NCBI GenBank assembly: GCA_023150375.1
Contig: JAKLLA010000013.1
Location: 1 to 64,000, forward strand
From: Burkholderiaceae bacterium
GTDB taxonomy: Bacteria > Pseudomonadota > Gammaproteobacteria > Burkholderiales > Burkholderiaceae_C
Reading direction: 5' to 3'
Length of the DNA stretch: 64,000 bases
Each line of letters begins with the position of its first letter. Position 1 is the stretch's first letter. Positions 14,454 to 37,114 of the stretch are shown piece by piece. The translations under genes and the position numbers were made by a program. The notes under the pieces are model-generated. The model worked only from the letters and a program-made list of their open reading frames with translations, was not told the DNA's origin and ran no database searches.

Positions 14454-15125
14454 ATGCTCGTCAACGCCGACTTCTCCCGCCGCGCCGTGGTGACGGCCGC
14501 CGCGCAGCGCTGGGTCGCCTCGCCGCAGCCCGGCGTCGAACGGGTGATGCTCGACCGCCTGGGCGGCGAGCGGGCCCGCGCCACCAGCCTGGTGCGCTAC
14601 GCGCCGGGCTCGGTCTTCGCGGCCCACGCCCACCCCGGGGGCGAGGAGATCCTGGTGCTGTCGGGCACCTTCCGCGACGACAGCGGCGACTACGGGCCGG
14701 GCAGCTACCTGCGCAATCCGCCGGGGTCGGCGCACCGGCCGTCCAGCCCCGACGGCGCCCTGATCTTCGTGAAGCTCTGGCAGATGCCCGCCAGCGACTG
14801 CGCCACGGTGCGCATCGACACCCGCGCGGCAGACGCCTGGCAGCAGGACGGCGCCGTGGCGCGCTGTGCCCTGCACCGCCACGGCCCGGTGCAGGTCGGC
14901 CTGCTGCGCCTCGCACCCGGGGCGCCGCTGGGGGTCGACACGGGCGGCGGCGCCGAGTGGCTGCTGCTGGAGGGGCAGCTGAACGAGGGCGCCGAGCCCT
15001 TCGCGCCCTTCAGCTGGATGCGCCTGCCGCCGGGCGCCGCGGACCCGGCAGCGCACTTCACCGCCGGGGCCGAGGGCGCGACGCTCTACCTCGCCACCGG
15101 GCATCTGGCTGAGCGCAGCGGCTGA
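14454..15125 (+). CDS. ChrR-like cupin-domain protein
   Basis: The product (223 residues from the ATG at 14454; in-frame ATGs at 14385 and 14412 are alternatives) contains two cupin folds. The first carries the metal-binding pattern FAAHAHPGGEEILVLSGTF (His58, His60, Glu64/65 and a later His), the second is degenerate. This matches the ChrR cupin family, whose members act as anti-sigma factors for ECF sigma factors or as stand-alone enzymes. The zinc-binding N-terminal domain of true ChrR is absent and no sigma factor gene is adjacent, so an anti-sigma role is unlikely. A metal-dependent dioxygenase-like activity is possible but unproven. Confidence 0.68.
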   Translation: MLVNADFSRRAVVTAAAQRWVASPQPGVERVMLDRLGGERARATSLVRYAPGSVFAAHAHPGGEEILVLSGTFRDDSGDYGPGSYLRNPPGSAHRPSSPDGALIFVKLWQMPASDCATVRIDTRAADAWQQDGAVARCALHRHGPVQVGLLRLAPGAPLGVDTGGGAEWLLLEGQLNEGAEPFAPFSWMRLPPGAADPAAHFTAGAEGATLYLATGHLAERSG

Positions 15126-15317
15126 GGACAGGCCGGATCAGGGGCGCGCCAGCGTTCGGCACGACGACGTGTCCGCCAGCTGGGCCGCCGCCCCGGCCTG
15201 AGGCCGCCCGGCTTCAGCCCCACGCCGGCCTGCCGATATCGACGGTGGGGCGGGCATTGGCTTGCCTGCACTGGACCGGGTCCGGACCGGCTCCGGGTTC
15301 CGCCACAGGCAGGGTTC

Positions 15318-16424
15318 ATGTCAGGTCGTTTCACGCACGCGCTGTTCGGTCGGGTCGTCTTCGAGGAAGGCGAGGAGTACCTGTCGTTCCAGTACCGCTT
15401 CCTGATCGTGGTGCAGCTGGCCGCGGCCCTGGCCACGGGGCTGTTCCTGCTGGGCGAGTCGACCCAGCTCAACCGCATCGACACGCCGCATGTGCGATCG
15501 ATGGCGGTGTTCACCGCGCTGTCGCTGCTGTTGTGGCTGCTGCTGCGCGGGCAGCGGCATCGCCTGCGCCCCATCGCCTTCACCTACCTGGCCGCCTGCG
15601 AGCTGGAGTACCTGTCGGCCCTGCTGTACGTGCCGCAGGACGAGATGCGCGTGCTCTGGTTCCTGACCCACATTCCAGGCGTGTATCTGCTGCTGGGACG
15701 GCGCTGGGGGGCCGGCGTGACGCTGGGCAACCTGGTCGGGCTGCTGCTGCTGAACCCCCGGCTGTCCGCGCCCTACTCGGCCAACGCGATGGCCACGCTG
15801 GCGGTGGCGATGGGCTACCTGGCGCTGTTCTTCCACGTCTACGTGCACCGCTCGATCTCCTACGTCCGGCAGGTGCAGCAGCTCAACCGGCGGCTGCGCG
15901 AGATGGCCACGCACGACACGCTGACCGGCCTGCTCGAGCCACGCGCCTACTACGACGCCAGCGAACGCCAGCTCGCGGCGGCCGGGCGCAGCGGGCGGGC
16001 CTGCGCGGTGCTCTTCGTGGACCTGGATCACTTCAAGCGCATCAACGACACGCACGGGCACGCCGCCGGCGACGAAGTGCTGCGCCAGGTGGCCCGCCAG
16101 CTGCGCGAGACGGTGCGCCAGGGCGACCTGGTCGGGCGCATCGGCGGAGAGGAGTTCTCGCTGTTCCTGCCCGACACGGACGAGGAACAGGCCGCGACGC
16201 TGGCCGAGCGACTGCGCGCGCGCATCGAGCAGCTGCGCATCGAAGCGGGCGGCCGCCCGATCCCGGTGACGGCCAGCATCGGCGTGGCCGCCTGTGCGGG
16301 CGGCAGCCTGGCGATGGCCGAGATCCAGAAGCAGGCCGATGCAGCCATGTACGAGGCCAAGGCCCGCGGACGCAACCGGGTGTCGCGCCTGGGCAATCGC
16401 ATTCCCCCGGCCCGGCCGGCCTGA
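15318..16424 (+). CDS. membrane diguanylate cyclase (GGDEF)
   Basis: The 368-residue product has about six N-terminal hydrophobic helices (roughly residues 25-190) and a C-terminal GGDEF domain: DTLTGLLEPRAYYD, VDLDHFKRINDTHGHAAGD, then GGEEF at about residues 276-280 with an RQGD inhibitory site just before it. It should synthesise cyclic di-GMP. The gene is convergent with another diguanylate cyclase whose stop lies 32 bases away on the opposite strand. The two membrane domains are not alike, so they probably sense different cues rather than being a recent duplication. No phosphodiesterase is nearby. Confidence 0.88.
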   Translation: MSGRFTHALFGRVVFEEGEEYLSFQYRFLIVVQLAAALATGLFLLGESTQLNRIDTPHVRSMAVFTALSLLLWLLLRGQRHRLRPIAFTYLAACELEYLSALLYVPQDEMRVLWFLTHIPGVYLLLGRRWGAGVTLGNLVGLLLLNPRLSAPYSANAMATLAVAMGYLALFFHVYVHRSISYVRQVQQLNRRLREMATHDTLTGLLEPRAYYDASERQLAAAGRSGRACAVLFVDLDHFKRINDTHGHAAGDEVLRQVARQLRETVRQGDLVGRIGGEEFSLFLPDTDEEQAATLAERLRARIEQLRIEAGGRPIPVTASIGVAACAGGSLAMAEIQKQADAAMYEAKARGRNRVSRLGNRIPPARPA

Positions 16425-24962: not shown

Positions 24963-25379
24963 ATGCGAATCCTCATCGTCGACGACTCGCCGCTGGTGCA
25001 AAGCGCGCTGAGCCGGCTGCTGACCGCCCAGGACGACCTGGAGGTCGTGGGCTGCGCCACCGACCGGCTCGGCGCGCTGGCCCTGATCGAACGCCACGAG
25101 CCGGATCTGGTGGTGCTGGACGTGGCGCTGACGCCGCCCGATCGCGGCTACGACGTGCTGCGCAGCATCCGCGCCCTGCGGCCAGGGCTGCCGGTGATCA
25201 TGCTGTCGAACTTCGGCTGGACGGCCATGCGACGGGCCTTCCTCGACGCCGGGGCGCAGGCCTACTTCGACAAGGCGCTGGAGTTCGGGCGCGCCGTGCA
25301 GTGGATCCGCGCCCAGGCACAGCCCTCGGCCGAACGGTCGACCCTGGACGGCGACGGAGAGGCCGGCACGGCGCGATGA
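24963..25379 (+). CDS. single-domain response regulator (CheY-like)
   Basis: The 138-residue product is a lone receiver domain: [15 protein letters not shown] at the start (Asp7, Asp8), phosphoacceptor Asp53 in [10 protein letters not shown], Ser in VIMLSNFG and Lys in AYFDKALEF. There is no output domain, so it must act by protein contact or in a phosphorelay. It lies 62 bases after hsp20 and is probably co-transcribed with it. The multi-PAS kinase four genes away is one possible donor. The unusual TPPDRGYD insertion after the phosphoacceptor is typical of this subgroup of stress-linked receivers. Confidence 0.85.
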
Positions 25380-25407
25380 GGGCCCAGGCCCGCCACGTCG
25401 GGAACGT

Positions 25408-25716
25408 TCAGCCGCCGCCGCGCTGCATGAACAGGTCGAAATAGTGCAGGAAGCCGGCCTGCTGCTCGGCGCTCAGGCCGCTGAAGCGGTAGGCGACCTG
25501 CAGCCGGGGCATGCGCATCAGTGCGATGGCGCGTGCTGGCAGCACCTGCCAGCGCAGTTCGAGCCGGCCGGCCGCACCGATGGCGACCTCCGCGCGCCCC
25601 TCGCCCAGGGTCAGCGGGTGCGCCCCGACCGCGCCGCGCAGGGTGGCCAGCCAGTCGGACTCGGTGACCCCATGTTCACGCTCGAACTCGGCACCGAGCG
25701 GGGCGGACCAGGCCAT
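25408..25716 (-). CDS. small unknown protein at the end of the AOR operon
   Basis: The 102-residue product is soluble and lacks cysteines and known motifs; hydrophobic and charged residues alternate as in an alpha/beta fold (RLELRWQVLPARAIALMRMP, then LQVAYRFSGLSAEQQAGFLHYFDLFMQRG). It is 21 bases downstream of the MoaD-like gene and is surely part of the same transcript. A comparable small gene closes the AOR operon of Aromatoleum-type bacteria (from memory), so it may be an assembly or cofactor-insertion factor. The C-terminal QRGGG tail resembles the ubiquitin-like ending of MoaD proteins, though the rest does not. No function is assigned. Confidence 0.65.
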   Translation of the reverse strand: MAWSAPLGAEFEREHGVTESDWLATLRGAVGAHPLTLGEGRAEVAIGAAGRLELRWQVLPARAIALMRMPRLQVAYRFSGLSAEQQAGFLHYFDLFMQRGGG

Positions 25717-25737
25717 GGCAGCAGTCTTCGGCGCGGT

Positions 25738-25992
25738 TCAGCCGCCCGCGATGGGCGGCCAGATGGCCAGCACGTCGCCCTCGCGCAGGGCGCGCGTGGG
25801 CCGATCGTCCGGTGCGACGTAGCTGCCGTTGATCAGCACCAGATGCACCATCTTCATCGGCAGGTTGAAGGGCTCGATGACCTGCGCGATGGTGGCGCCT
25901 TCGGCCACCTCCAGCGTCACCTGGTTGCTGGTGCGGCGGTCGGCCGGCAGGAACTCGGTGAGGCTGGCGTAGAGCTTGAAGGTGATCTGCAT
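25738..25992 (-). CDS. aorD: MoaD-like sulfur-carrier protein of the AOR operon
   Basis: The 84-residue protein has the ubiquitin-like fold of MoaD/ThiS (ITFKLYASLTEFLP at the start, then VTLEVAEGATIAQVI) and ends in ...PPIAGG, with the terminal Gly-Gly that becomes a thiocarboxylate. MoaD delivers the sulfur of the pterin dithiolene in molybdenum and tungsten cofactors. A dedicated copy inside an AOR operon suggests a role in making the tungsto-bispterin cofactor for this enzyme. It lies between the oxidoreductase gene (62 bases) and the small unknown gene. The symbol follows the naming used for Aromatoleum and is tentative. Confidence 0.85.
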   Translation of the reverse strand: MQITFKLYASLTEFLPADRRTSNQVTLEVAEGATIAQVIEPFNLPMKMVHLVLINGSYVAPDDRPTRALREGDVLAIWPPIAGG

Positions 25993-26054
25993 GGTGAAGG
26001 AGTCTCCCACGCCGGGCCCGGCCCTGGCCGGACCCGGTGTTTCGGGATGGCCGT

Positions 26055-27455
26055 TCAGCCCGCCTTGACGAGCGCCGGCTCGCCCTGCGCCTGAGCGCTG
26101 GCCAGGTAGGCCTCCATCAGCAGCGTCGGGTCGGCCAGCAGCTTGTCGCGCCAGGGACCGAGCTTGACCTGGCCTTCGACCAGGCCGCGCATGACGCCGA
26201 TGTGCTGGGTCCAGCCGATCGAGTTGCAGCCCACCAGCTTCTCGTCGTCGAATTGCAGGCTCAGCAGCTTGCCGGCCGCCTCGTCGATGAACTCGACATG
26301 CTGCCCGCCCGGCACCCCCTCCCACTTGCCGAAGCTCGCGGAGATCATGCCCAGCGTGTCCAGCACGTTGATCTGCGTGACGCCCTTGAGCTCGGTGACC
26401 TGGCCGACCATGTTGAGCGCGGCCACCCGGGCCTGCTCGGCCGCGTTGGGCTGGATGGCGCTGACGATGGTCTTGCCGTAGACCTTGTCGAAGGCCTCGG
26501 CGCAGTCGCCTGCGGCGTAGATGCCCGGCACATTGGTCTGCAGGTGCTCGTCGGTCAGGACACCCAGCAGGCAGGTGATGCCCGAGTTCTCGAGGAAGCC
26601 GATGTTCGGCCGCACCCCGGTGGCGGAGATCACCAGGTCGGCCTCCAGGCGCTGCCCGGTGGACAGGCGCACCTGCATGGGCTTGCCGACCGGGTCGGGC
26701 TGGGCCACCGGCGCCGGCGTGTGGCCGCCGAGGCCCACCGCCACCGCGATCTTGCCGAGCAGGCCGGCCGGCTTGGCCGCTTCGGCGGCGCCGTGCAGCG
26801 GTGCCGGGTGGCCGCCCAGGTTGCGCTCGATGGCCTCCACCTTGGCGCCGGTGTAGACCTTGACGCCCTTCTTCTCGCACCACTCCTTGATCATGCGCCC
26901 GGCGGTGGGGCCCATCATGCGCGGCACCATGCGGTCGCCCATCTCGACCACCGTCAGGTCGACGCCGCGCATCGCCAGCGCTTCCATGATGATGCAGCCG
27001 ATGAAGCCGGCACCCAGTTGCAGCACCCGTGCACCCGGCTTGGCCAGCGCCATGATCGCGCGGGCGTCCTCCAGGGTCCAGCAGGTGTGCACGCCCGGTC
27101 CGCGGATGCCGGGGATCGGGGGCGAGATCGGCGACGAGCCGGTGGCGATCAGCAGCTTGTCGAAGGATTCACGGCGACCGTCCTCCAGCACGACCTGCCG
27201 GGCCTGCACGTCCACCGTCCTGGCGCGACCACGCTCGAGCCGGATGCCCAGCTTTGCGTAGTGATGCTCGCCGTGGCGCAGGTGGGTGCCGGACTCCGCG
27301 ACCTTGCCGATCAGCAGGTAGGGGATCGCCATGCGCGAGTAAGGCGCCTCGGGCTCGTCACCGATCAGCACCACCTCGTCGGCCGGCGCCTGCTTGCGGA
27401 TGGTCTCGGCGGCAATGACGCCGGAGGGCCCGGCGCCGAGGATCACGTGTTTCAT
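26055..27455 (-). CDS. aorC: FAD/NAD-dependent oxidoreductase subunit of AOR
   Basis: The 466-residue product belongs to the pyridine nucleotide-disulfide oxidoreductase family: FAD site ILGAGPSGVIAAE at the N-terminus, NAD site LQLGAGFIGCIIMEALAMRG at about 145-165, and the second FAD motif GIYAAGDCAE near 315. There is no CxxxxC redox pair, so it is a NADH:acceptor type enzyme. It would link the AOR and its ferredoxin subunit to NAD+/NADH, as in the three-subunit AorABC of Aromatoleum. A Pro/Ala-rich insertion of about 45 residues (roughly 220-265) sits between the NAD and central domains. It starts 132 bases after the AOR stop; the gap contains no terminator. Confidence 0.88.
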   Translation of the reverse strand: MKHVILGAGPSGVIAAETIRKQAPADEVVLIGDEPEAPYSRMAIPYLLIGKVAESGTHLRHGEHHYAKLGIRLERGRARTVDVQARQVVLEDGRRESFDKLLIATGSSPISPPIPGIRGPGVHTCWTLEDARAIMALAKPGARVLQLGAGFIGCIIMEALAMRGVDLTVVEMGDRMVPRMMGPTAGRMIKEWCEKKGVKVYTGAKVEAIERNLGGHPAPLHGAAEAAKPAGLLGKIAVAVGLGGHTPAPVAQPDPVGKPMQVRLSTGQRLEADLVISATGVRPNIGFLENSGITCLLGVLTDEHLQTNVPGIYAAGDCAEAFDKVYGKTIVSAIQPNAAEQARVAALNMVGQVTELKGVTQINVLDTLGMISASFGKWEGVPGGQHVEFIDEAAGKLLSLQFDDEKLVGCNSIGWTQHIGVMRGLVEGQVKLGPWRDKLLADPTLLMEAYLASAQAQGEPALVKAG

Positions 27456-27587
27456 CGAGTACGTCTCCAGAAATGCAAAAGGGTGCGGGGTCAGCCGCAC
27501 CCTCCCGAGCAGCCGCCGCGCCGCCGGCCGGGCCGCTGGCGGCGCTCCCGTTCGAGGAGCGCCGTCAGGCGCGACGGGAGATGGGCT

Positions 27588-29435
27588 TCACAACCCGAGG
27601 CGCTCGCGGGTCTCGTCCTTGAGCGTGCCGTCGGCATTCCAGCCGCGGATCTCGTAGTACTTCGGCAGCATCTCGGGCAGCTTGTTGACCAGGCCCTTGG
27701 CGGGGCCGGTCTTGGCCGGCTCGTTCAGCAGGCGCGGCGGCAGGGTGTCGTCCTTGGCGGTGAAGCCGGCGCGGTTGTTGAAGTCGCGCTCCATGTTCCA
27801 GATCCGCTCGCCGATCTTGGCCATGTTCTCCAGGGTGAACTCCTCGCCGCAGGCGGCCGCCACCTGCGGCGCCACGTCGGCCAGGCCCCAGGCGAAGCTG
27901 GTGAAGATGCAGATGCCGGCCGCGTCGAAGGCCGCGGTGGCGTCCTGGAAGGCCATCACCAGCTCGGGCTTGCCGTCGGCGGTCAGCGGGTCGGTCTTGA
28001 CCGGGATGCCCAGCACTTCCGAGGCCACGGTGTAGCTGCGCAGGTGGCAGGCGCCGCGGTTGGAGGTGGCGTAGGTCAGGCCCATGCCCTGGATGCCACG
28101 CGAGTCGTAGGCCGGGAATTCCTGGCCCTTGACGCTCATCGACAGCTCGGGATGGCCGTATTTCTCGCACAGGCGCTTGGAGCCCAGGCCGATTTCCTTG
28201 CCGAAGCCTTCGCCCTTGGCGGTCATCTCGGCGAACTGGCACAGCGCCTTGGCCGAGCCGAAGGGCGCCTCGACACCCAGCTGCTCCTTGGTCAGCACGC
28301 CCATGTCGTACAGCTCCATCACCGCACCGATGGTGGCGCCGAAGGAGATCGGGTCGAAGCCCTGCTCGTTGCAGATCAGGTTGGCGTACTGCAGCGCTTC
28401 CAGGTCGTTGACGCCGTTGGCAGCGCCCAGGGCCCAGGCCGCTTCGTACTCCAGGCCGCCGGAGGCGCCCCAGTACTGCGGCTTGTTCTCGACCGAGAAG
28501 TGGCCCTTGTCCATCTTGGAGATGCGACCGCAGGCGATGGTGCAGCCGAAGCAGGCCTGGTTGGTGACCAGGTGCTTCTTGCCGTCGCTGGCGCGCGGGG
28601 TGACCATGGCCTCGGCGGAGATGTCCTTGGCGCCCTCGAACTGCACGTCGCGGTGGTTGCGGGTGGGCAGCGCGCCGATCTCGTTGATCACGTTCATCAG
28701 CACCTGGGTGCCGTAGGTCGGCAGGCCCTGGCCGGTGACGCCGTTCTCGGCAAGGATCTTCTTCTTCTCGGCGGTGACCCGCATGAAGGCCTTGGGGTCG
28801 GCGATGTTGCCCACGCCCTTGGTGCCACGCACGGCCACGGCCTTGAGGTTCTTGGTGCCCATCACGGCGCCGACGCCGGAGCGGCCGGCAGCGCGGTGCA
28901 GGTCGTTCACCACGGCGGCGAACAGCACCTTGTTCTCGCCGGCCAGGCCGATCGAGGAGACACGCACCAGCGGATCCTGGTGGGTCTTGTGAATGATCTC
29001 CTCGGTCTCCCAGACCGACTTGCCCCACAGGTGGGCCGCGTCACGCAGCTCGGCCTTGTCGTCCTCGATGCTGAGGTAGACCGGCTTGGGCGAGGCGCCC
29101 TCGAAGATCACCATGTCCCAGCCGGCCATCTTCAGCTCGGCGCCCCAGTAGCCGCCGGAGTTGGAGCAGGCGATCGCGCCGGTGAGCGGACCCTTGGTGA
29201 CGACGGTGTAGCGCCCGCCGGTGGAGGCCATCGTGCCGGTCAGCGGCCCGGTCGCCCAGATGATCTTGTTGTCGGCCGACAGGGGATCGACCTTGGGGTC
29301 CATCTCCTCGACCAGGTACTTGGTGGCCAGGCCGCGCGAGCCCAGGTACAGCTTGGCCCAGTCCATGCGCAGCGGCTCGGACGTGACGGTGCCGGCGGTC
29401 AGGTCGACGCGGAGGATTTTTCCAGCCCAGGACAT
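27588..29435 (-). CDS. aorB: tungsten-dependent aldehyde:ferredoxin oxidoreductase, catalytic subunit
   Basis: The 615-residue product is a full-length AOR-family enzyme, cytoplasmic, oxidising aldehydes to acids at a tungsto-bispterin centre. It shows the N-terminal GKILRVDLTAG, the SRGLATKY and GGRYTVVTKGPLTG pterin-contact regions, and the [4Fe-4S] ligands C295, C298 and C302 (CFGCTIAC) plus C509 (AAGICIF). It matches the bacterial AOR/benzoyl-type group rather than the archaeal enzymes by its operon partners. The neighbours supply the electron path (four-cluster ferredoxin upstream, FAD/NAD subunit downstream), a MoaD-like protein and, close by, tungstate uptake and MoeA. Together these make tungsten rather than molybdenum the likely metal. 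The substrate is not determined; aliphatic or aromatic aldehydes are both possible. Confidence 0.93.
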   Translation of the reverse strand: MSWAGKILRVDLTAGTVTSEPLRMDWAKLYLGSRGLATKYLVEEMDPKVDPLSADNKIIWATGPLTGTMASTGGRYTVVTKGPLTGAIACSNSGGYWGAELKMAGWDMVIFEGASPKPVYLSIEDDKAELRDAAHLWGKSVWETEEIIHKTHQDPLVRVSSIGLAGENKVLFAAVVNDLHRAAGRSGVGAVMGTKNLKAVAVRGTKGVGNIADPKAFMRVTAEKKKILAENGVTGQGLPTYGTQVLMNVINEIGALPTRNHRDVQFEGAKDISAEAMVTPRASDGKKHLVTNQACFGCTIACGRISKMDKGHFSVENKPQYWGASGGLEYEAAWALGAANGVNDLEALQYANLICNEQGFDPISFGATIGAVMELYDMGVLTKEQLGVEAPFGSAKALCQFAEMTAKGEGFGKEIGLGSKRLCEKYGHPELSMSVKGQEFPAYDSRGIQGMGLTYATSNRGACHLRSYTVASEVLGIPVKTDPLTADGKPELVMAFQDATAAFDAAGICIFTSFAWGLADVAPQVAAACGEEFTLENMAKIGERIWNMERDFNNRAGFTAKDDTLPPRLLNEPAKTGPAKGLVNKLPEMLPKYYEIRGWNADGTLKDETRERLGL

Positions 29436-29451
29436 GTGATTCCTCCTTGGT

Positions 29452-29928
29452 TCAGGCTGCGGAAGGCTGGTTGCCCAGCTTGTCGGCCCAGGCCTGCATC
29501 TTGCCCAGGCCGGTCCAGTTGGCGTCGATGTAGGTGATCGCGCCGGTGGGGCAGGCGGTGGCGCAGGCGGGGTCGCCGCCGCAGAGGTCGCACTTCTGCA
29601 CCTTGCCGGTTTCCTGCATGTAGTTGATGGTGCCGAAGGGGCAGCTGATCGTGCAGACCTTGCAGCCCACGCAGGTGGACTCGGCCACCACCTTGGCGCC
29701 GGTCAGCTTGTCGATCGTGATGGCCTCGACCGGGCAGGCGTGCAGGCACCACGCCTCGTCGCACTGGGTACAGGTGTAGGGCACCTTGCGGCCGGTCTCG
29801 TGGAAGTTGAACACCTTGATGCGCGATTTGGCCGGCGCGAACACGCCGTAGTTCTCGTAGGAACAGGCCATCTCGCACTGCAGGCAACCCGTGCACTTGT
29901 CCGGGTTGATGTGGAGGCTCTTCTGCAT
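29452..29928 (-). CDS. aorA: four-cluster ferredoxin subunit of AOR
   Basis: The 158-residue product is of the polyferredoxin (DmsB/HycB-like) type with 16 cluster cysteines in four groups: CTGCLQCEMACS, CTQCDEAWCLHACP, CVGCKVCTISCP and CDLCGGDPACATACP. It should carry four [4Fe-4S] clusters that pass electrons from the AOR active site to the FAD subunit. It is the first gene of the operon and 16 bases before aorB. No signal peptide is present, so it is cytoplasmic. A symmetric repeat (30019-30036) lies 91 bases upstream of its start and may control the whole operon. Confidence 0.92.
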   Translation of the reverse strand: MQKSLHINPDKCTGCLQCEMACSYENYGVFAPAKSRIKVFNFHETGRKVPYTCTQCDEAWCLHACPVEAITIDKLTGAKVVAESTCVGCKVCTISCPFGTINYMQETGKVQKCDLCGGDPACATACPTGAITYIDANWTGLGKMQAWADKLGNQPSAA

Positions 29929-30018
29929 GTCGCTGGTTCTCCTCGATCGGTTCTGGACCGTTCCTTCGCTGCCGCCTGCCTGGCATCCGCAGGCGAGGGC
30001 GGCCCCGGCGAAGGGGCA

Positions 30019-30036
30019 TATGCAATCATCTGCATA
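30019..30036. promoter_or_regulatory. inverted repeat upstream of the AOR operon, likely metal-responsive operator
   Basis: TATGCA (30019-30024), a six-base spacer, and TGCATA (30031-30036) form a perfect repeat. The half-site/N6/half-site geometry is that of ModE boxes (TATATA-N6-TATATA core). A near copy, TATGTC-N6-TGCATA, lies at 32594-32611 between tupB and moeA. The shared site suggests one regulator for AOR production and tungstate uptake. Confidence 0.6.
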
Positions 30037-30174
30037 GCCCGTCCGGCCGGGAACCTGGGAGGAACCCTAGCAACGGATCGGCCGGGATACGGGTTGCTCC
30101 ACCGTGGAACGGCCGATGTGCTCCGTCCCCACGGCGGCGCGGGCGGGGCGGGGAAGGAACGTCGCGGCTGCAGC

Positions 30175-31038
30175 TCAGCGCCCGGCGTTGGGGAAGAACA
30201 GCTGCTCGCCGCCGATCTTGTAGGACGCGATGGCCGCCTGGCCGGCGCCGGACACGATCCAGTCGGAGAACTGCTGCGCCAGCGCGGTCTTGGTGTGGGG
30301 ATGCCGGGCCGGATTCACGACGATCACGCCGTACTGGTTGAACAGGGCCTTGTCGCCCTCGACCAGGATGCGCAGCTCGCCGCGGTTCCTGAACGACAGC
30401 CAGGTGCCCCGGTCGGTCAGCACGTAGGCGTTGGTCGAAGAGCCCATGTTCAGCGCCGGGCCCATGCCGCAGCCGCACTCGCGATAGCCGGCCGGCTTGC
30501 TCGCCACCACGTCCACGCCGGCACGCTTCCAGTAGCGCAGCTCGGCGGCGTGGGTGCCGCTCTTGTCGCCGCGCGAGACGAACACCGCATCGGAGGCGGC
30601 GAGCTTCTTCAGCGCCGCGACGATGTCCGCGCCCGCCACCCGGGCCGGGTCGGCGGCCGGCCCCACCAGCACGAAGTCGTTGTACATCACCGCCCGGCGT
30701 GCCAGGCCGTGGCCGTCGGCGACGAACTTCTCCTCGGCGGCCTGGTCGTGCACGAAGACGATGTCGGCATCGCCGCGCCGGCCCATGTCCAGCGCCTGGC
30801 CGGTGCCCAGCGCCACCACGCGCACGTCGATGCCGCTGGCCTGCCGGAACAGCGGCAGCAGGTGCCTGAACAGGCCGGACTGCTCGGTGGAGGTGGTCGA
30901 GGCCATCACGATGGCCTTGTCCTGCGCCGCCGCCGGCAGCGCCGCGCCCGGCCCCAGGGTGGCCAGCAGGCCCAGGGCGGCCAGCCAGCCGCGACGGCGG
31001 CGAAGGGCGCTCGGGAGGCCCAGGGGGTTCAGTGCCAT
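30175..31038 (-). CDS. tupA: tungstate ABC transporter, periplasmic binding protein
   Basis: The 287-residue product has a signal peptide (GWLAALGLLATLGPGAALPAAA, cleavage near residue 38) and the TupA tungstate-binding signature ASTTSTEQSGLF right after it, followed by GTGQALDMGRRGDADIVFVHD and the central YNDFVLVGP. TupA proteins bind tungstate far more tightly than molybdate, unlike ModA. It is the last gene of the minus-strand tupBCA operon; its start overlaps the end of tupC by ten bases. The AOR operon follows downstream after a 246-base gap, which explains the need for tungsten. Confidence 0.93.
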   Translation of the reverse strand: MALNPLGLPSALRRRRGWLAALGLLATLGPGAALPAAAQDKAIVMASTTSTEQSGLFRHLLPLFRQASGIDVRVVALGTGQALDMGRRGDADIVFVHDQAAEEKFVADGHGLARRAVMYNDFVLVGPAADPARVAGADIVAALKKLAASDAVFVSRGDKSGTHAAELRYWKRAGVDVVASKPAGYRECGCGMGPALNMGSSTNAYVLTDRGTWLSFRNRGELRILVEGDKALFNQYGVIVVNPARHPHTKTALAQQFSDWIVSGAGQAAIASYKIGGEQLFFPNAGR

Positions 31039-31757
31039 GGCAACTCGCCTCGGAGGAACTGCGCTGCCTCGGTGGGCAGCTCTGCGTGGAAGAAGCGGTC
31101 CACCGGCAGGTCCACGACCTGCCGACCCGCTTCCAGGTAGATCACCCGGGTGGCCAGGCGCTTGACCTGGCCCAGGTTGTGACTGCTCATCACCAGGGTG
31201 ACGCCATCGGCGGCGAAGGCGGCGATCAGCGCCTCCACCTCGCGCTTGGAGCCCGGGTCCAGGCTGGCGGTGGGTTCGTCGAGGAAGAGGATGTCCGGAC
31301 GCAGCATCCAGGCGCGCGCCAGCGCCAGGCGCTGCTGCTGGCCGCCCGACAGCGCGCGCGCGGGCCGCCCCTCCAGCCCCTGCAGGCCCACGCGCTGCAG
31401 CGCCTCGGCCAGCCGCTGCGGCCACTCGCGCCGCGGCACGCGCGCCAGCCACAGCGCCAGCTTCAGGTTCAGCGCCACCGACAGCTGCAGCAGGAAGGGC
31501 CGCTGGAACAGCATGGCCTGCACCGGCGCGCGCCCGTCGATGGGGTGCACGCGCCGCTCGCCGCTGCCCGGCAGCAGCCCGTGCAGCAGGCGCAGCAGCG
31601 TGGTCTTGCCGCAGCCGTTCGCGCCGATCAGCGCCAGCCGCTCGCCGCGCCGCAGGGTCAGGTCCAGCGGCTGCAGCGCCTGCACCTCGCCGAAGCGCAC
31701 GCCGGCGGCACGCAGCTCGATCACCGGGGGGCCCGGCAGGGGCGTCGGCGCCGTCAT
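31029..31757 (-). CDS. tupC: tungstate ABC transporter, ATP-binding protein
   Basis: The 242-residue protein has all ABC ATPase motifs: Walker A GANGCGKTT (from residue 45), signature LSGGQQQR, Walker B ILFLDEP with the catalytic Glu, and a His switch in SSHN. It powers the TupBCA importer. The ATG overlaps the tupB stop by four bases (ATGA) and its own end overlaps tupA, so the three genes are tightly coupled. The lack of the extra C-terminal regulatory domain seen in ModC fits the Tup type, in which tungstate control is by a separate regulator. Confidence 0.93.
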   Translation of the reverse strand: MTAPTPLPGPPVIELRAAGVRFGEVQALQPLDLTLRRGERLALIGANGCGKTTLLRLLHGLLPGSGERRVHPIDGRAPVQAMLFQRPFLLQLSVALNLKLALWLARVPRREWPQRLAEALQRVGLQGLEGRPARALSGGQQQRLALARAWMLRPDILFLDEPTASLDPGSKREVEALIAAFAADGVTLVMSSHNLGQVKRLATRVIYLEAGRQVVDLPVDRFFHAELPTEAAQFLRGELPWH

Positions 31758-32467
31758 ACCACCCGCTCGCTTTCCGCACCGCCGCGCCCGGGCAGCAGGG
31801 CGATGGCGCCGTTGATCAGGCCGACCACGCCGAGCAGCACCAGCCCCAGCGCCAGCGCCAGCGGCAGGTCGCCCTTGCTGGTCTCGAGGGCGATGGCGGT
31901 GGTCATGACGCGGGTCAGCCCGTCGATGTTGCCGCCCACCACCATCACGGCGCCCACTTCGGCGATGGCGCGGCAGAAGGCGGTCAGCAGCACCGTCAGC
32001 ACCGCGAAGCGCGCGTGCAGCAGCACCAGCAGCGCGGCGGTGAGCGCGCCCGCGCCCATCGAGCGCAGCTGGTCGCCGCCCTCGCGCAGGCCGTCGAGCA
32101 CGACGCGGCGGGTCAGCGCGGCGATCAGCGGCACCACCAGGATGCTCTGCGCCACCACCATCGCCCCAGGCGTGAAGAGGATGCCCCAGGACCCCAGCGG
32201 GCCCGAGCGCGACAGCATCAGGTAGACCAGCAGGCCCACCACCACCGAGGGCAGCGCCAGCAGCGTGTTCACGCCCCAGACCAGCAGCCGGTGGCCGGGG
32301 AAGCGCGCCACCGCCAGCCAGGCGCCCAGCCAGAGCCCCAGCACGGCGCCGACCGCGCAGGCCGACAGGCTGACCTGCAGCGACAGCCCGACGATCTGCC
32401 AGAGCGCGGCATCGGCCTGGGCGATCAGCTGCAGGGCCAGCAGGAAACTTTCGGAAATGGCGGACAT
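31754..32467 (-). CDS. tupB: tungstate ABC transporter, permease
   Basis: The 237-residue product has five to six membrane helices and the binding-protein-dependent permease motif near the middle (LREGGDQLRSMGAGALTAALLVL). It matches TupB/ModB-type permeases of the group that pairs with TupA: AVGAVLGLWLGAWLAVARFPG, VVGLLVYLMLSRSGPLG and VGAVMVVGGNIDGLTRVMTTAIALE. It is the first gene of the tupBCA operon, divergent from moeA, with a 203-base region between that contains a copy of the AOR-type operator. Confidence 0.92.
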   Translation of the reverse strand: MSAISESFLLALQLIAQADAALWQIVGLSLQVSLSACAVGAVLGLWLGAWLAVARFPGHRLLVWGVNTLLALPSVVVGLLVYLMLSRSGPLGSWGILFTPGAMVVAQSILVVPLIAALTRRVVLDGLREGGDQLRSMGAGALTAALLVLLHARFAVLTVLLTAFCRAIAEVGAVMVVGGNIDGLTRVMTTAIALETSKGDLPLALALGLVLLGVVGLINGAIALLPGRGGAESERVV

Positions 32468-32593
32468 CGCGCAGGCGGCATCGGCGACAGGAAGGCAAGG
32501 GAGCGGTCCGACCGGTGGGCGGCCGCAGAGGCACGGTCGAAGCGAAGGAACCGGGCGGGGCGCGATTCTGCGGGCCGGCTGCGCTTCGCGCGA

Positions 32594-32611
32594 TATGTCG
32601 GCGCTTGCATA
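32594..32611. promoter_or_regulatory. inverted repeat in the tupB-moeA divergent promoter
   Basis: TATGTC (32594-32599), six bases, and TGCATA (32606-32611) repeat the pattern found at 30019-30036 with the same spacing; ten of the twelve half-site bases agree. It is 127 bases from the tupB start and 60 from the moeA start, so it can serve both directions. Confidence 0.6.
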
Positions 32612-32670
32612 AGGCTCTCGGCAGGCGGGCTGGCCGTCGCGGCGGCACGCTGGCTATCATCCTGGCCACC

Positions 32671-33960
32671 ATGTCCGAACTCGGCCCCTCCCCCCTCACC
32701 GCCCACGAAGACAACCTGGCCGTCGACGCTGCGCGCGCCGCGATCGCCGCCGCGCTGCAGCCCATCGACGCTGTCGAACCGGTGGGCCTGGGCGAGGCGC
32801 TCGGACGTGTGCTGGCCGAGGACGTGATCTCGCCGATCGACGTGCCCGCGCACGACAACTCGGCGATGGACGGCTACGCCTTCGCCGCCGCCGACCTGGC
32901 CGTCGACGCACCCACCTTGCTGCAGACGGTGGGCACCGCCTTCGCCGGCACGCCCTGGAACGGCCCGGTCGGCCCTGGCCAGTGCCTGCGCATCATGACC
33001 GGTGCGGTGCTGCCGGCCGGGCTGGACACGGTGGTGCCGCAGGAGCTGGTGAGCGTCGTCGACGGCCGGGTGACGATTCCCCCCGGCGTCATCCGCGCCT
33101 TCGAGAACCGCCGCCTGCGGGGCGAGGACCTGGCACGCGGCCGCCCGGCGCTGACCGCCGGGCGCGTGCTGCGGCCGGCCGACCTGGGCCTGATCGCCTC
33201 GCTGGGCATCCCGGCCGTGCCGGTGCGCCGCCGCCTGCGCGTGGCGGTGTTCTCTACCGGCGACGAACTGCGCAGCGCGGGCGAGCCGCTCGAGCCCGGC
33301 TGCATCTACGACAGCAACCGCTTCACGCTGCTGGCGGCGGTGCGGCGCCTGGGCATGGAGGCGATCGACCTCGGCCTGGTGCGCGACGACCCGGCCGCCC
33401 TCGAGGCCACGCTCGAGCGCGCCGCCCGCGAGGCCGATGCGGTGCTGACCAGCGGCGGCGTCAGCGTGGGCGATGCCGACCACACCCGCGACCTGCTCGC
33501 CCGCATGGGCGAGGTGGCCTTCTGGAAGGTGGCCATGCGCCCGGGGCGACCCTTCGCCTTCGGGCCGATCCGCGCCAGCGGCGCCGCCGATCGGCGCGAT
33601 GCCCGGCCGGTCTGGCTGTTCGCGCTGCCGGGCAACCCCGTGGCCAGCCTGGTGACCTTCTACGTCTTCGCCCGCGAAGGCCTGCTGCGCCTGGCCGGCG
33701 CCCAGGCCGAGCCGCTGCCCGCGCTGCCGGTGCGCAGCGCCGCGGCGATCCGCAAGCGCCCCGGACGCAGCGAGTTCCAGCGCGGCCGGCTGCGCCGCGC
33801 CGCCGATGGGGCCTGGGAGGTGGCGATCACCGGCGCGCAGGGCGCGGGCATCCTGCGCAGCATGTGCGAGGCCGACTGCCTGGTGCTGCTGCGCCACGAC
33901 CAGGGCTCGGTCGCTGCGGGCGAGCCGGTCGAGGTCTGGCCCTTCGACGCGCTGGTCTGA
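32671..33960 (+). CDS. moeA: molybdopterin/tungstopterin insertion protein MoeA
   Basis: The 429-residue product is a complete Moe[20 protein letters not shown] near the N-terminus, [19 protein letters not shown], the MogA-like domain with VFSTGDEL and [17 protein letters not shown], and the C-terminal [18 protein letters not shown]. MoeA inserts molybdate or tungstate into adenylylated pterin. Its position, divergent from tupBCA and near the AOR operon, suggests that this copy serves the tungsten cofactor; whether the genome has a second moeA for molybdenum cannot be seen here. The ATG at 32671 is the first with a protein-like sequence; the frame upstream is open but not coding. Confidence 0.92.
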
Positions 33961-34150
33961 GAGGCCGGGGCAGCCGCCGGATCCCGGGGCGGCCGCGCCG
34001 CCGCTGCACGGCCTTTGCGCGACGCGGCACAGCCGGCCGTCACAGCGCCGGGGCACAGGTGTTAGAGCCTGGAGCAGTCTTCAGGGTGAACCCCGAAGCC
34101 CGACGCGCCGACGGGGTCGCACCTGCCCTCCGAAGAGCCCTCGGCGGCCC

Positions 34151-34166
34151 TGGCACGGTTGTCGCT
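34151..34166 (+). promoter_or_regulatory. sigma-54-type -24/-12 promoter before the PQQ dehydrogenase gene
   Basis: TGGCAC (34151-34156), five bases, then TCGCT (34162-34166) gives GG-N10-GC with one mismatch to TGGCAC-N5-TTGCT. It lies 66 bases before the ATG. PQQ alcohol dehydrogenases of related bacteria are known to be activated by sigma-54-dependent regulators; no such activator gene is in the window. Confidence 0.5.
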
Positions 34167-34231
34167 CAGGAAGAATTCCCGAGCAGCGCCTGGCGGCGTT
34201 GCCGTGTCACCCTTCCACGAGGAGACTGTTC

Positions 34232-35971
34232 ATGCAAAAGAAACTCTTGGGCCTGCTGATCGGCGCCGGCCTGGCGTCCTTCGCCGCCCACGCTGCGGTC
34301 ACGGACCAGATGATCGAGAACGACGCCAAGACCACCGGCGACGTGGTCAGCTGGGGCATCGGCCAGCAGGGCCAGCGCTACTCGCCGCTCAAGCAGATCA
34401 ACACCTCCACGGTGGGCAAGCTGGTGCCGGTGTGGTCCTTCTCCTTCGGCGGCGAGAAGCAGCGCGGCCAGGAGAGCCAGCCGCTGATCCACAACGGCAA
34501 GATGTTCGTCACCGGCTCCTACTCGCGCATCTTTGCGCTGGACGCCAAGACCGGCAAGAAGCTCTGGAAGTACGAGCACCGCCTGCCCGACGGCATCATG
34601 CCCTGCTGCGACGTGATCAACCGCGGCGCCGCGCTCTACGACAACCTGGTGATCTTCGCCACGCTGGACGCCCAGCTGGTCGCGCTGAACCAGGACACCG
34701 GCGAGGTGGTCTGGAAGGAGAAGATCGACAACTACGCCGACGGCTACTCCGCTTCGGCCGCCCCGCTGATCGCCCAGGGCCTGCTGCTGACCGGCGTGTC
34801 CGGCGGCGAGTTCGGCGTGGTCGGCCGCGTCGAGGCGCGCGACCCGAAGACCGGCAACCTGGTCTGGGTGCGCCCGGTGGTCGAAGGCCACATGGGCTAC
34901 AAGTTCGACAAGGACGGCAAGAAGATCGAGAACGGCATCTCCGGCACCCAGGGCAAGACCTGGCCGGGCGACCTGTGGAAGACCGGCGGCGCGGCCACCT
35001 GGCTGGGCGGCACCTACAACCCGAAGACCGGCCTGGCCTACTTCGGCACCGGCAACCCGGCGCCCTGGAACAGCCACCTGCGCAAGGGTGACAACCTCTT
35101 CAGCTGCTCGACCGTCGCGATCGACGTGAAGACCGGCCAGATCGTCTGGCACTACCAGAACACGCCGAACGACGGCTGGGACTTCGACGGCGTCAACGAG
35201 TTCGTCACCTACGACGAGGGCGGCAAGATCCTGGGCGGCAAGGCCGACCGCAACGGCTTCTTCTACGTCAACGACGCCAAGACCGGCCAGCTGGTCAACG
35301 CCTTCCCCTTCGTCAAGAAAGTGACCTGGGCCACCGGCATCGACCTGAAGACCGGCCGTCCCAACTTCGTGCCCGAGAACCGCCCCGGCGACCCGACCGC
35401 CGGCGCCGACGGCAAGAAGGGCAACACGGTGTTCTCGGCGCCCTCCTTCCTGGGCGGCAAGAACCAGATGCCGATGGCCTACTCGCCGGAGACCAAGCTG
35501 TTCTACGTGCCGGCCAACGAGTGGGGCATGGAGATCTGGAACGAGCCGATCACCTACAAGAAGGGTGCGGCCTACCTGGGCGCGGGCTTCACCATCAAGA
35601 CGCTGGGCGACGGCCCGATCGGGGCCCTGCGCGCCATCGACCCGAAGACCGGCAAGATCGTCTGGGAAGCCCCCAACAACGCGCCGCTGTGGGGCGGCGT
35701 GCTGACCACCGGCGGCAACCTGGTGTTCTGGGGCACGCCTGAAGGCTACCTGCAGGCCGCCGACGCCAAGACCGGCAAGATCGTCTGGAAGTTCCAGACC
35801 GGCTCGGGCGTCGTGGCGCCCCCGATCACCTGGGAAGACAAGGGCGAGCAGTACGTCGCCGTGGTCTCCGGCTGGGGTGGCGCGGTGCCGCTGTGGGGCG
35901 GCGACGTGGCCAAGAAGGTGAACTACCTCGAGCAGGGCGGCTCGGTCTGGGTGTTCAAGCTGATGAAGTGA
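34232..35971 (+). CDS. PQQ-dependent alcohol dehydrogenase, probably lanthanide type
   Basis: The 579-residue product is exported (signal peptide [21 protein letters not shown]) and consists of an eight-bladed propeller with tryptophan-docking repeats (for example [20 protein letters not shown] and [16 protein letters not shown]). The vicinal disulfide is present in IMPCCDV. The catalytic Asp317 is followed by Asp319 in GWDFDGVNE; this Asp-X-Asp pattern is characteristic of lanthanide-dependent enzymes (XoxF, PedH), whereas calcium enzymes have Ala or Ser there. No haem-binding CxxCH is present, so it is a quinoprotein, not a quinohaemoprotein, and needs an external cytochrome c that is not encoded nearby. 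It should oxidise a primary alcohol to aldehyde in the periplasm. Proximity to the tungsten AOR suggests a two-step alcohol oxidation. Confidence 0.9.
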
Positions 35972-36041
35972 GCCCGAGCGGGCCGGCCGGTGCCGGCCTG
36001 TACAGGCCCCGGGAGGGACGGCCCCCTCCCCGCGGCGCCTC

Positions 36042-36064
36042 GAACCCCGCCCCGTGCGGGGTTC
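36042..36064. terminator. hairpin between convergent PQQ dehydrogenase and pirin genes
   Basis: GAACCCCGC (36042-36050) pairs with GCGGGGTTC (36056-36064) over a five-base loop, followed by GTCGTTT on the plus strand. The position 70 bases after the dehydrogenase stop and seven before the pirin stop fits a shared terminator, although the T-run is weak. Confidence 0.6.
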
Positions 36065-36070
36065 GTCGTT

Positions 36071-36958
36071 TCAGCGGCTCGCTTCCATCTGCCCGAAGCG
36101 GCCGGCCTGGAAGTCCTCGAAGGCCTGCACGATCTCCTCGCGGCGGGTCATCACGAAGGGACCGTAGCCGACCACCGGCTGGCCCAGCGGCTCGCCGGAC
36201 AGCAGCAGCAGCCGCGCCTCGCCCTCGGACTCGAGTTCGACCTGCGTGCCCTCGGCCGAGAAGGACAGCAGTTGCGCGGCGCCCACGCCCCGGCCGTCGG
36301 CCAGGCGCAGCCGGCCCTCGCGCAGCAGCAGCTGCACCGGCCAGCCCTCGGGCTGCGCCAGCCGCAGCCGGGCCGCGCGCTGCAGGTGCAGATCCCAGAC
36401 GTTCATCGGCGAGAAGGTGCGCGCGGGCCCGCGCAGCTCGCCCTGGGCACCGGCGATCAGACGCATCGCGCCGACCTCGCGGCCGTCGACGTCGTGCAGC
36501 GGCGCCGTGACGATCCGTGCCGCGTCGATGGCCTGGTAGCCCGGCGGGCAGAGCTTGTGCCGCGCCGGCAGGTCCACCCAGAGCTGCACCATCTCGAAGG
36601 GTCCGCCCTGGCGGGCGTAGTCGGCCGAGTGGAACTCGTCGTGCAGGATGCCGGCGCCGGCGGTCATCCACTGCACGTCGCCGGGGCCGATCACCCCGCC
36701 CTGCCCGGTCGAATCGCGGTGCTCGACCTCGCCGGCATAGACCAGGGTCACCGTCTCGAAGCCGCGGTGCGGGTGCGCGCCCACACCGCGCCGCGTGGCC
36801 GTGGGCTCGAAGCGCGTCGGCGCGGCGTAGTCGAGCATCAGGAAGGGGCTGCGCGCGGTGGCGCCGGCGTCGTAGCCGAACATGCCGTGCACCGGAAAGC
36901 CGTCGCCCACCCAGTGGCGAGCGGGCGCGGGGCGGATCGAGGTCATCTGCTTGGTCAT
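36071..36958 (-). CDS. pirin-family protein
   Basis: The 295-residue product has the double cupin fold of pirins: the metal ligands fall in AHPHRGFETVTLVYAGEVEHRDSTG, followed by VQWMTAGAGILHDEF, and the C-terminal pirin domain contains LLLSGEPLGQPVVGYGPFVM. Bacterial pirins bind iron or nickel; some have quercetinase activity, others act on partner enzymes. The context (PQQ dehydrogenase on one side, acyl-CoA synthetase on the other) does not define a role. The ATG at 36958 follows CAGGAG at a normal distance. Confidence 0.88.
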   Translation of the reverse strand: MTKQMTSIRPAPARHWVGDGFPVHGMFGYDAGATARSPFLMLDYAAPTRFEPTATRRGVGAHPHRGFETVTLVYAGEVEHRDSTGQGGVIGPGDVQWMTAGAGILHDEFHSADYARQGGPFEMVQLWVDLPARHKLCPPGYQAIDAARIVTAPLHDVDGREVGAMRLIAGAQGELRGPARTFSPMNVWDLHLQRAARLRLAQPEGWPVQLLLREGRLRLADGRGVGAAQLLSFSAEGTQVELESEGEARLLLLSGEPLGQPVVGYGPFVMTRREEIVQAFEDFQAGRFGQMEASR

Positions 36959-37114
36959 CCAGGACTCCTGAGGCGGGCGCCTCCAGGCGCCCTGCACGAG
37001 CCCGATGATGCCCAGCGCAGGCCCGCCCGGCATCCTGTGGGGCTGAACACGACGTTCGAGGGCGGCGAACGCGGCCGCCAGCCCGACGCCGGCAAGCGCA
37101 CCGCCTGCCCGCCC

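Follow-up and report, generated by a model that had tools for sequence, protein, structure and literature searches.

Two short inverted repeats (dyads) in a 64-kb stretch of a Burkholderiaceae genome (64,000 nucleotides of contig JAKLLA010000013.1, referred to here as the window) are probably operators of a single regulator, most likely a protein encoded outside the window on contig C8, which would couple tungstate uptake, metal insertion and production of a tungsten aldehyde oxidoreductase (AOR). The first dyad, TATGCA-ATCATC-TGCATA, lies between tupA and aorA, 91 bp 5' of the aorA ATG, and the second, TATGTC-GGCGCT-TGCATA, is intergenic, with the starts of tupB and moeA diverging on either side (Table 1). 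Their sequence, spacing and gene context, as described in an earlier reading of the DNA letters (the sequence-only reading), were confirmed on the letters. The proposal draws on the conservation of the sites, the domain make-up of the C8 protein, its linkage to the same genes in relatives, the presence of the dyad before regulator genes, and the co-occurrence of dyad and regulator.

The shared dyad at aor and tup promoters

The two dyads have the core TATG-N10-CATA in common. Across the 4.63 Mb genome this core is found at three places (a reversed control pattern at two), the same three at which the longer pattern TATGY-N7-TGCATA matches exactly; one falls in the aor promoter, one in the tupB/moeA promoter and the third inside an open reading frame (ORF) read as a glycosyltransferase. 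The core does not, in other words, recur in many unrelated genes, a point on which the sequence-only reading had staked its claim. Five more places match TATGY-N7-TGCATA with one mismatch and include, as judged by eye, a tRNA-Cys anticodon arm, an integrase ORF and a region 5' of a phbB-like gene. The two sites are the only zero-mismatch matches within the window, where matching with up to two mismatches gave six matches against 7.45 expected, i.e., no enrichment. Because these looser matches sit at chance level, the claim rests on the exact sites and their conservation. There was likewise no clear genome-wide excess of the dyad in five relatives (31 sites versus 25 for the control) or, by eye, in 300 genomes, 286 of which have a match. 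Thirteen of the 31 sites lie at tup, aor, formate dehydrogenase (FDH), an FdsR-like regulator or a molybdenum hydroxylase; three of the other 18 (L203, L206 and L209) were inspected.

Conservation was assessed in the best 80 of at least 591 confirmed AorB loci (81-90% identical), whose record titles, where they name a group, mostly refer to Burkholderiales or to families and genera thereof. An aorA start was found in 78 of these loci and at least 120 bp of 5' sequence in 76 (L073, L075, L090 and L099 were dropped). Counts were made for 4864 four-base dyads, with spacer lengths from 2 to 20, in up to 250 bp 5' of aorA. The most frequent was TATG-N10-CATA, exact in 40 of the 76 loci compared with 0.06 in dinucleotide shuffles; ranks two to four (18, 15 and 14 loci) represent this site read at an offset, and the highest-ranking unrelated dyad reached 13. 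With one mismatch permitted, the dyad was found upstream of aorA in 60/76 loci versus 2.46 in shuffles. The exact core is also present in 26 of 30 tupB promoters (0.01 in shuffles). Both dyads are thus conserved far above shuffles, and the sites hold at the related aor and tup loci, where the sequence-only reading had put itself at risk. Flanking bases at aor favour CTATGCA-N6-TGCATAG, with the outer C at 0.74 and the outer G at 0.60 (42 sites). A draw of 300 genomes from the order, which overlaps the 80-locus set (e.g., G234 and L093 yield one regulator row), contained 27 with AorB at 1e-100, our own genome included; 25 of these were judged by reading, and 11 have an exact dyad upstream of aorA, two have one with a single mismatch and 12 have none.

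Two explanations dispense with a regulator. A chance likeness of two short palindromes agrees with the chance-level loose matches in the window and is refuted by the conservation at orthologous promoters; we give it practically no weight. The dyads could instead be RNA elements, such as a Moco/Tuco riboswitch, or promoter -10 elements, as TATGCA, by reading, resembles a -10 hexamer and lies near genes. Against this, the half-sites are kept as a dyad with a fixed N10 and a variable centre, and Rfam, including the Moco/Tuco riboswitch, gave no matches at the gathering threshold in window positions 25000-37000, which counts against a riboswitch. We regard this explanation as very improbable.

At several aor and tup promoters (L039, L087, L131, L135 and others) a weaker second dyad (TAGG..) overlaps the first with a 16-bp step, as if two dimers could sit side by side.

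A candidate regulator outside the window

The sequence-only reading had called for a dedicated tungstate-responsive regulator and saw no gene for it in the window. A search beyond it found a candidate of 379 amino acids at G000:C8:81585-82721, unlinked to both window dyads in this genome, whose homologues are tied to tup and aor in relatives. It is the genome's best match to a ModE domain (TIGR00637, 42 bits, under the curated cut-off of 98.5) and has a sensor domain of family PF12727 (PBP_like, 4.3e-50), of which no second copy scored over the cut-off in this genome. Pfam lists HTH_1 in the candidate, and HTH_17 is not listed up to an E value of 0.1. A profile of the homologues matches 2ijl (1e-7) and 1b9m (0.0043), with LysR-type domains close behind, in line with a ModE-type N-terminal winged helix. 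The fold-match list for the candidate itself is filled by the sensor part, which among solved structures comes closest to proteins that bind phosphate, molybdate or tungstate; LysR effector domains follow slightly further away. No TOBE/molbindin domain was found in the candidate. The genome has two TOBE matches, one in an ORF read as ModC and one, weak, on C29; a TOBE-type ModE was rejected as the regulator, as none was recognised in the genome and only the weak C29 match remains.

Of the 80 aor loci, 20 themselves contain a regulator homologue. One set follows the aor operon (e.g., L046, with the Sphaerotilus mobilis copy at 14491-15636, L052 and L065) and another diverges from tup behind the dyad. 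Among distinct sequences with a start and enough 5' sequence in the locus, the exact dyad precedes 30 of 32 tup-divergent and 8 of 9 fdsG-divergent copies, none of the seven in aor operons and 3 of 19 others. A tree of the regulators (proteins shorter than 300 amino acids and identical copies dropped, midpoint root) splits a tup/aor group of 49, comprising 30 tup-divergent, seven aor-operon and 12 other copies and no fdsG-divergent copy, from a group of 16 in which the fds-divergent, FdsR-like copies fall and at whose base stand the tup-linked L138 and two unassigned copies. The candidate pairs with L157 (support 95/49) and next with Sphaerotilus (96/87). On a Halomonas plasmid, a homologue has one exact and one single-mismatch dyad in front (L211:4907/4984). 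A similar pairing, of two dyads within one mismatch and 75-80 bp apart, was observed before six of the nine fds-divergent regulators (L144, L146, L148, L151, L152 and L153).

The aor dyad and the regulator also co-occur. In 75 genomes (L063 was left out of the 76 loci), allowing up to one mismatch, both were present in 51, neither in nine, the dyad only in eight and the regulator only in seven (Fisher p=0.00095), and with exact dyads the counts were 38, 15, 2 and 20 (p=0.00017), although these p-values overstate the independent evidence because the genomes share ancestry and include many drafts. A genome was scored as regulator-positive from its match to the regulator; L107 was set as regulator-present from a contig-edge fragment, and L083 as absent, its one match (191 bits) being FdsR-like. 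Both carry the dyad at aor when one mismatch is permitted, and reverting both leaves the table unchanged. Three Tepidimonas genomes keep aor and tup and have no regulator match; in them no dyad was found at aor even with one mismatch permitted, and none was exact at tup.

Could a different DNA-binding protein own the dyads, the regulator being a co-controlled neighbour? The regulator gene of this genome is unlinked to the window sites and in some genomes the dyad is present where no regulator was detected, as such an arrangement would allow. Set against it are the dyads before regulators of the tup-linked and fds-linked groups and before the Halomonas plasmid homologue, the co-occurrence of aor dyad and regulator, and the ModE-like geometry of the dyad, which suits the genome's best ModE-domain protein. 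We consider a different owner improbable and favour the C8 protein.

Known regulators, probable ligand and proposed mode of control

The dyads have the same half-site-N6-half-site spacing as the published ModE consensus, ATCGNTATATA-N6-TATATANCGAT (PMC545781), bearing out the layout noted in the sequence-only reading together with its differing half-sites: most are TATGCA, whereas ModE has TATATA with an outer CG. The candidate shares the ModE-type winged helix and, unlike ModE, lacks TOBE.

TaoR of Desulfovibrio vulgaris is described as a characterised regulator of tungsten aldehyde oxidoreductase with helix-turn-helix (HTH) and PBP-like domains, and TaoR-like proteins as carrying helix-turn-helix-17 (PMC11980592); a tungstate-uptake regulator of D. 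vulgaris is cited as tupR from the same paper as TaoR, Rajeev et al. 2019 (PMC10102598). Our candidate is like TaoR in its PBP-like sensor and in having sites, as predicted here, at aor and tup promoters, and differs in its HTH_1, ModE-like HTH from the HTH_17 of TaoR-like proteins. The 2019 abstract of Rajeev et al. reportedly has TaoR activating aor and repressing tup when tungsten is replete.

FdsR of Cupriavidus necator is reported to be formate-inducible (PMC7057948). The fds-divergent homologues, taken as FdsR from their gene position, are homologous over the HTH and PBP domains, are 36-40% identical and have the same dyad; the family is thus FdsR-like. The tup/aor regulators form a separate branch. 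In addition, the residue after the conserved SH in the first loop of the sensor is D in 30/31 tup-divergent and 7/7 aor-operon copies and G in 9/9 fds-divergent copies (18 other copies: D in 15, Q in one, G in two). This position is a candidate ligand switch, given that C. necator FdsR answers to formate; it tracks the tree closely, and may mark a different ligand or descent only. TaoR, with a similar sensor and another DNA-binding domain, already provides the closest known control logic, and FdsR the protein type.

Targets other than aor bear on the ligand. Genomes G204 and G294 belong to the same family and gave no AorB match at the threshold used; both have the regulator divergent from tup, as well as another dyad some 240-280 bp 5' of a formate dehydrogenase alpha-like gene. 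On an annotated plasmid of Diaphorobacter sp. HDW4B the regulator stands alongside MoeA, MoeA-PBP, a TupA-like gene and an FDH operon; the last two are each preceded by an exact dyad, at a distance of 83 bp for the TupA-like gene and 61 bp for the operon. MoeA-PBP, an archaeal-type MoeA with PF12727, is described as having a proposed role in tungsten handling and as accompanied by TupA in 86% of cases (PMC11733289); it has PF12727 in common with the candidate and is an enzyme, whereas the candidate is a regulator. Since tungstate uptake is the constant target and the enzyme varies (AOR or FDH), a metal ligand is favoured over an aldehyde. It is conceivable, if rather unlikely, that the same regulator senses something else, i.e., molybdate, a molybdopterin or cofactor species, or a substrate or product, for example formate, an aldehyde or a carboxylate. 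The FdsR-like sister group with its formate-inducible member, a dyad 5' of a molybdenum hydroxylase-type gene in G264 and the nearness in fold of LysR effector domains all speak for this. The tungstate transporter as common denominator of the tup-linked group speaks for tungstate, as would the D/G difference if it reflects a differing ligand.

We infer that a dimer of the regulator would bind TATG-N10-CATA through its ModE-type winged HTH, while its PBP-like oxyanion sensor (PF12727) would bind tungstate, or else molybdate, in the cytoplasm. If it works like TaoR, the regulator loaded with the metal would keep tup repressed and would allow or activate aor expression; the opposite signs proposed for the two promoters lean on this analogy. 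One regulator would thereby link uptake by tupBCA, metal insertion into the cofactor by moeA and production of the aor enzyme, and the bacterium could tie tungsten uptake to tungsten enzyme production. A broader picture, which we hold with as much reserve as confidence, is a Burkholderiales tungsten regulon under a one-component switch with ModE-type DNA-binding and a TupA/ModA-like sensor, whose operator code is common with FdsR-like regulators of formate dehydrogenase, which resembles TaoR with its DNA-binding domain exchanged, and in which the D/G position in the first loop of the sensor perhaps sets tungstate versus formate.

In the literature surveyed (titles and abstract openings, with subscription papers mostly outside), neither this regulator nor a TATG-N10-CATA operator is described, and little is described of how tungsten import and enzyme building are controlled in non-sulfate-reducing proteobacteria. 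Our analysis supplies a candidate regulator, operator and targets for many species, suggests a function for proteins annotated just as 'substrate-binding domain-containing', and suggests one operator code common to tungsten-uptake and formate dehydrogenase regulators.

Other features of the locus

Table 1. Genes and predicted regulatory elements of the aor/tup/moeA locus (window positions).
Feature	Position	Strand	Basis or remark
aorC, FAD/NAD(P) subunit	26055..27500	-	Pfam Pyr_redox_2; start not fixed
aorB, large subunit binding tungstopterin	27588..29435	-	Pfam AFOR_N, AFOR_C
aorA, small 4Fe-4S subunit of tungsten aldehyde oxidoreductase	29452..29928	-	Pfam Fer4 families
Predicted aor operon operator, TATGCA-N6-TGCATA	30019..30036	.	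Sequence, genome rarity, conservation 5' of aorA
Second conserved element 5' of aor, CTAGGGTT in coding direction, then CCAGGTTCC	30050..30070	-	7-mer counts, spacing
tupA, tungstate-binding protein	30175..31038	-	Pfam PBP_like_2
tupC, tungstate transporter ATPase	31029..31757	-	Pfam ABC_tran; placed between tupA and tupB
tupB, tungstate transporter permease	31754..32467	-	NCBIfam ABC_perm1 over cut-off; tung_perm_TupB under cut-off
Predicted operator common to tupB and moeA, TATGTC-N6-TGCATA	32594..32611	.	Sequence, rarity, conservation 5' of tupB
moeA, molybdopterin molybdotransferase without PBP domain	32671..33960	+	Pfam MoeA_N, MoCF_biosynth, MoeA_C; NCBIfam NF007960 over cut-off

TupA matches NCBIfam tung_bind_TupA under its cut-off and aligns with the solved tungstate-binding protein 3lr1 (1e-68), and also with 5my5; no Pfam family matched TupB. 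Genes read as modA, modB and modC lie 5.5 kb past the window (L119:7502-10269; G000:C7 ~69.5-72.3 kb). They were rejected as regulon members, with no dyad within one mismatch in the 20 kb examined there. An ORF resembling, by eye, a CRISPR Cas3 helicase was observed at L119:13659-16550.

The second element upstream of aor contains TAGGGTW, which is found 5' of aorA in 28/76 relatives as well as in the window and begins 32-33 or 46-47 bp 5' of the dyad in 20 of the 28 pairs listed, so its distance from the dyad is nearly fixed. The 7-mer CTAGGGT is present in 25/76 aorA promoters (0.25 expected), and the AGGTT repeat that follows the element was counted in just 7/76. The element hints at a separate activator, for which it would be a possible site. 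At window position 34083, AGGGTGAACC, about 150 bp before a pyrroloquinoline quinone (PQQ)-dependent alcohol dehydrogenase gene (about 34232-35971), is loosely like this element.
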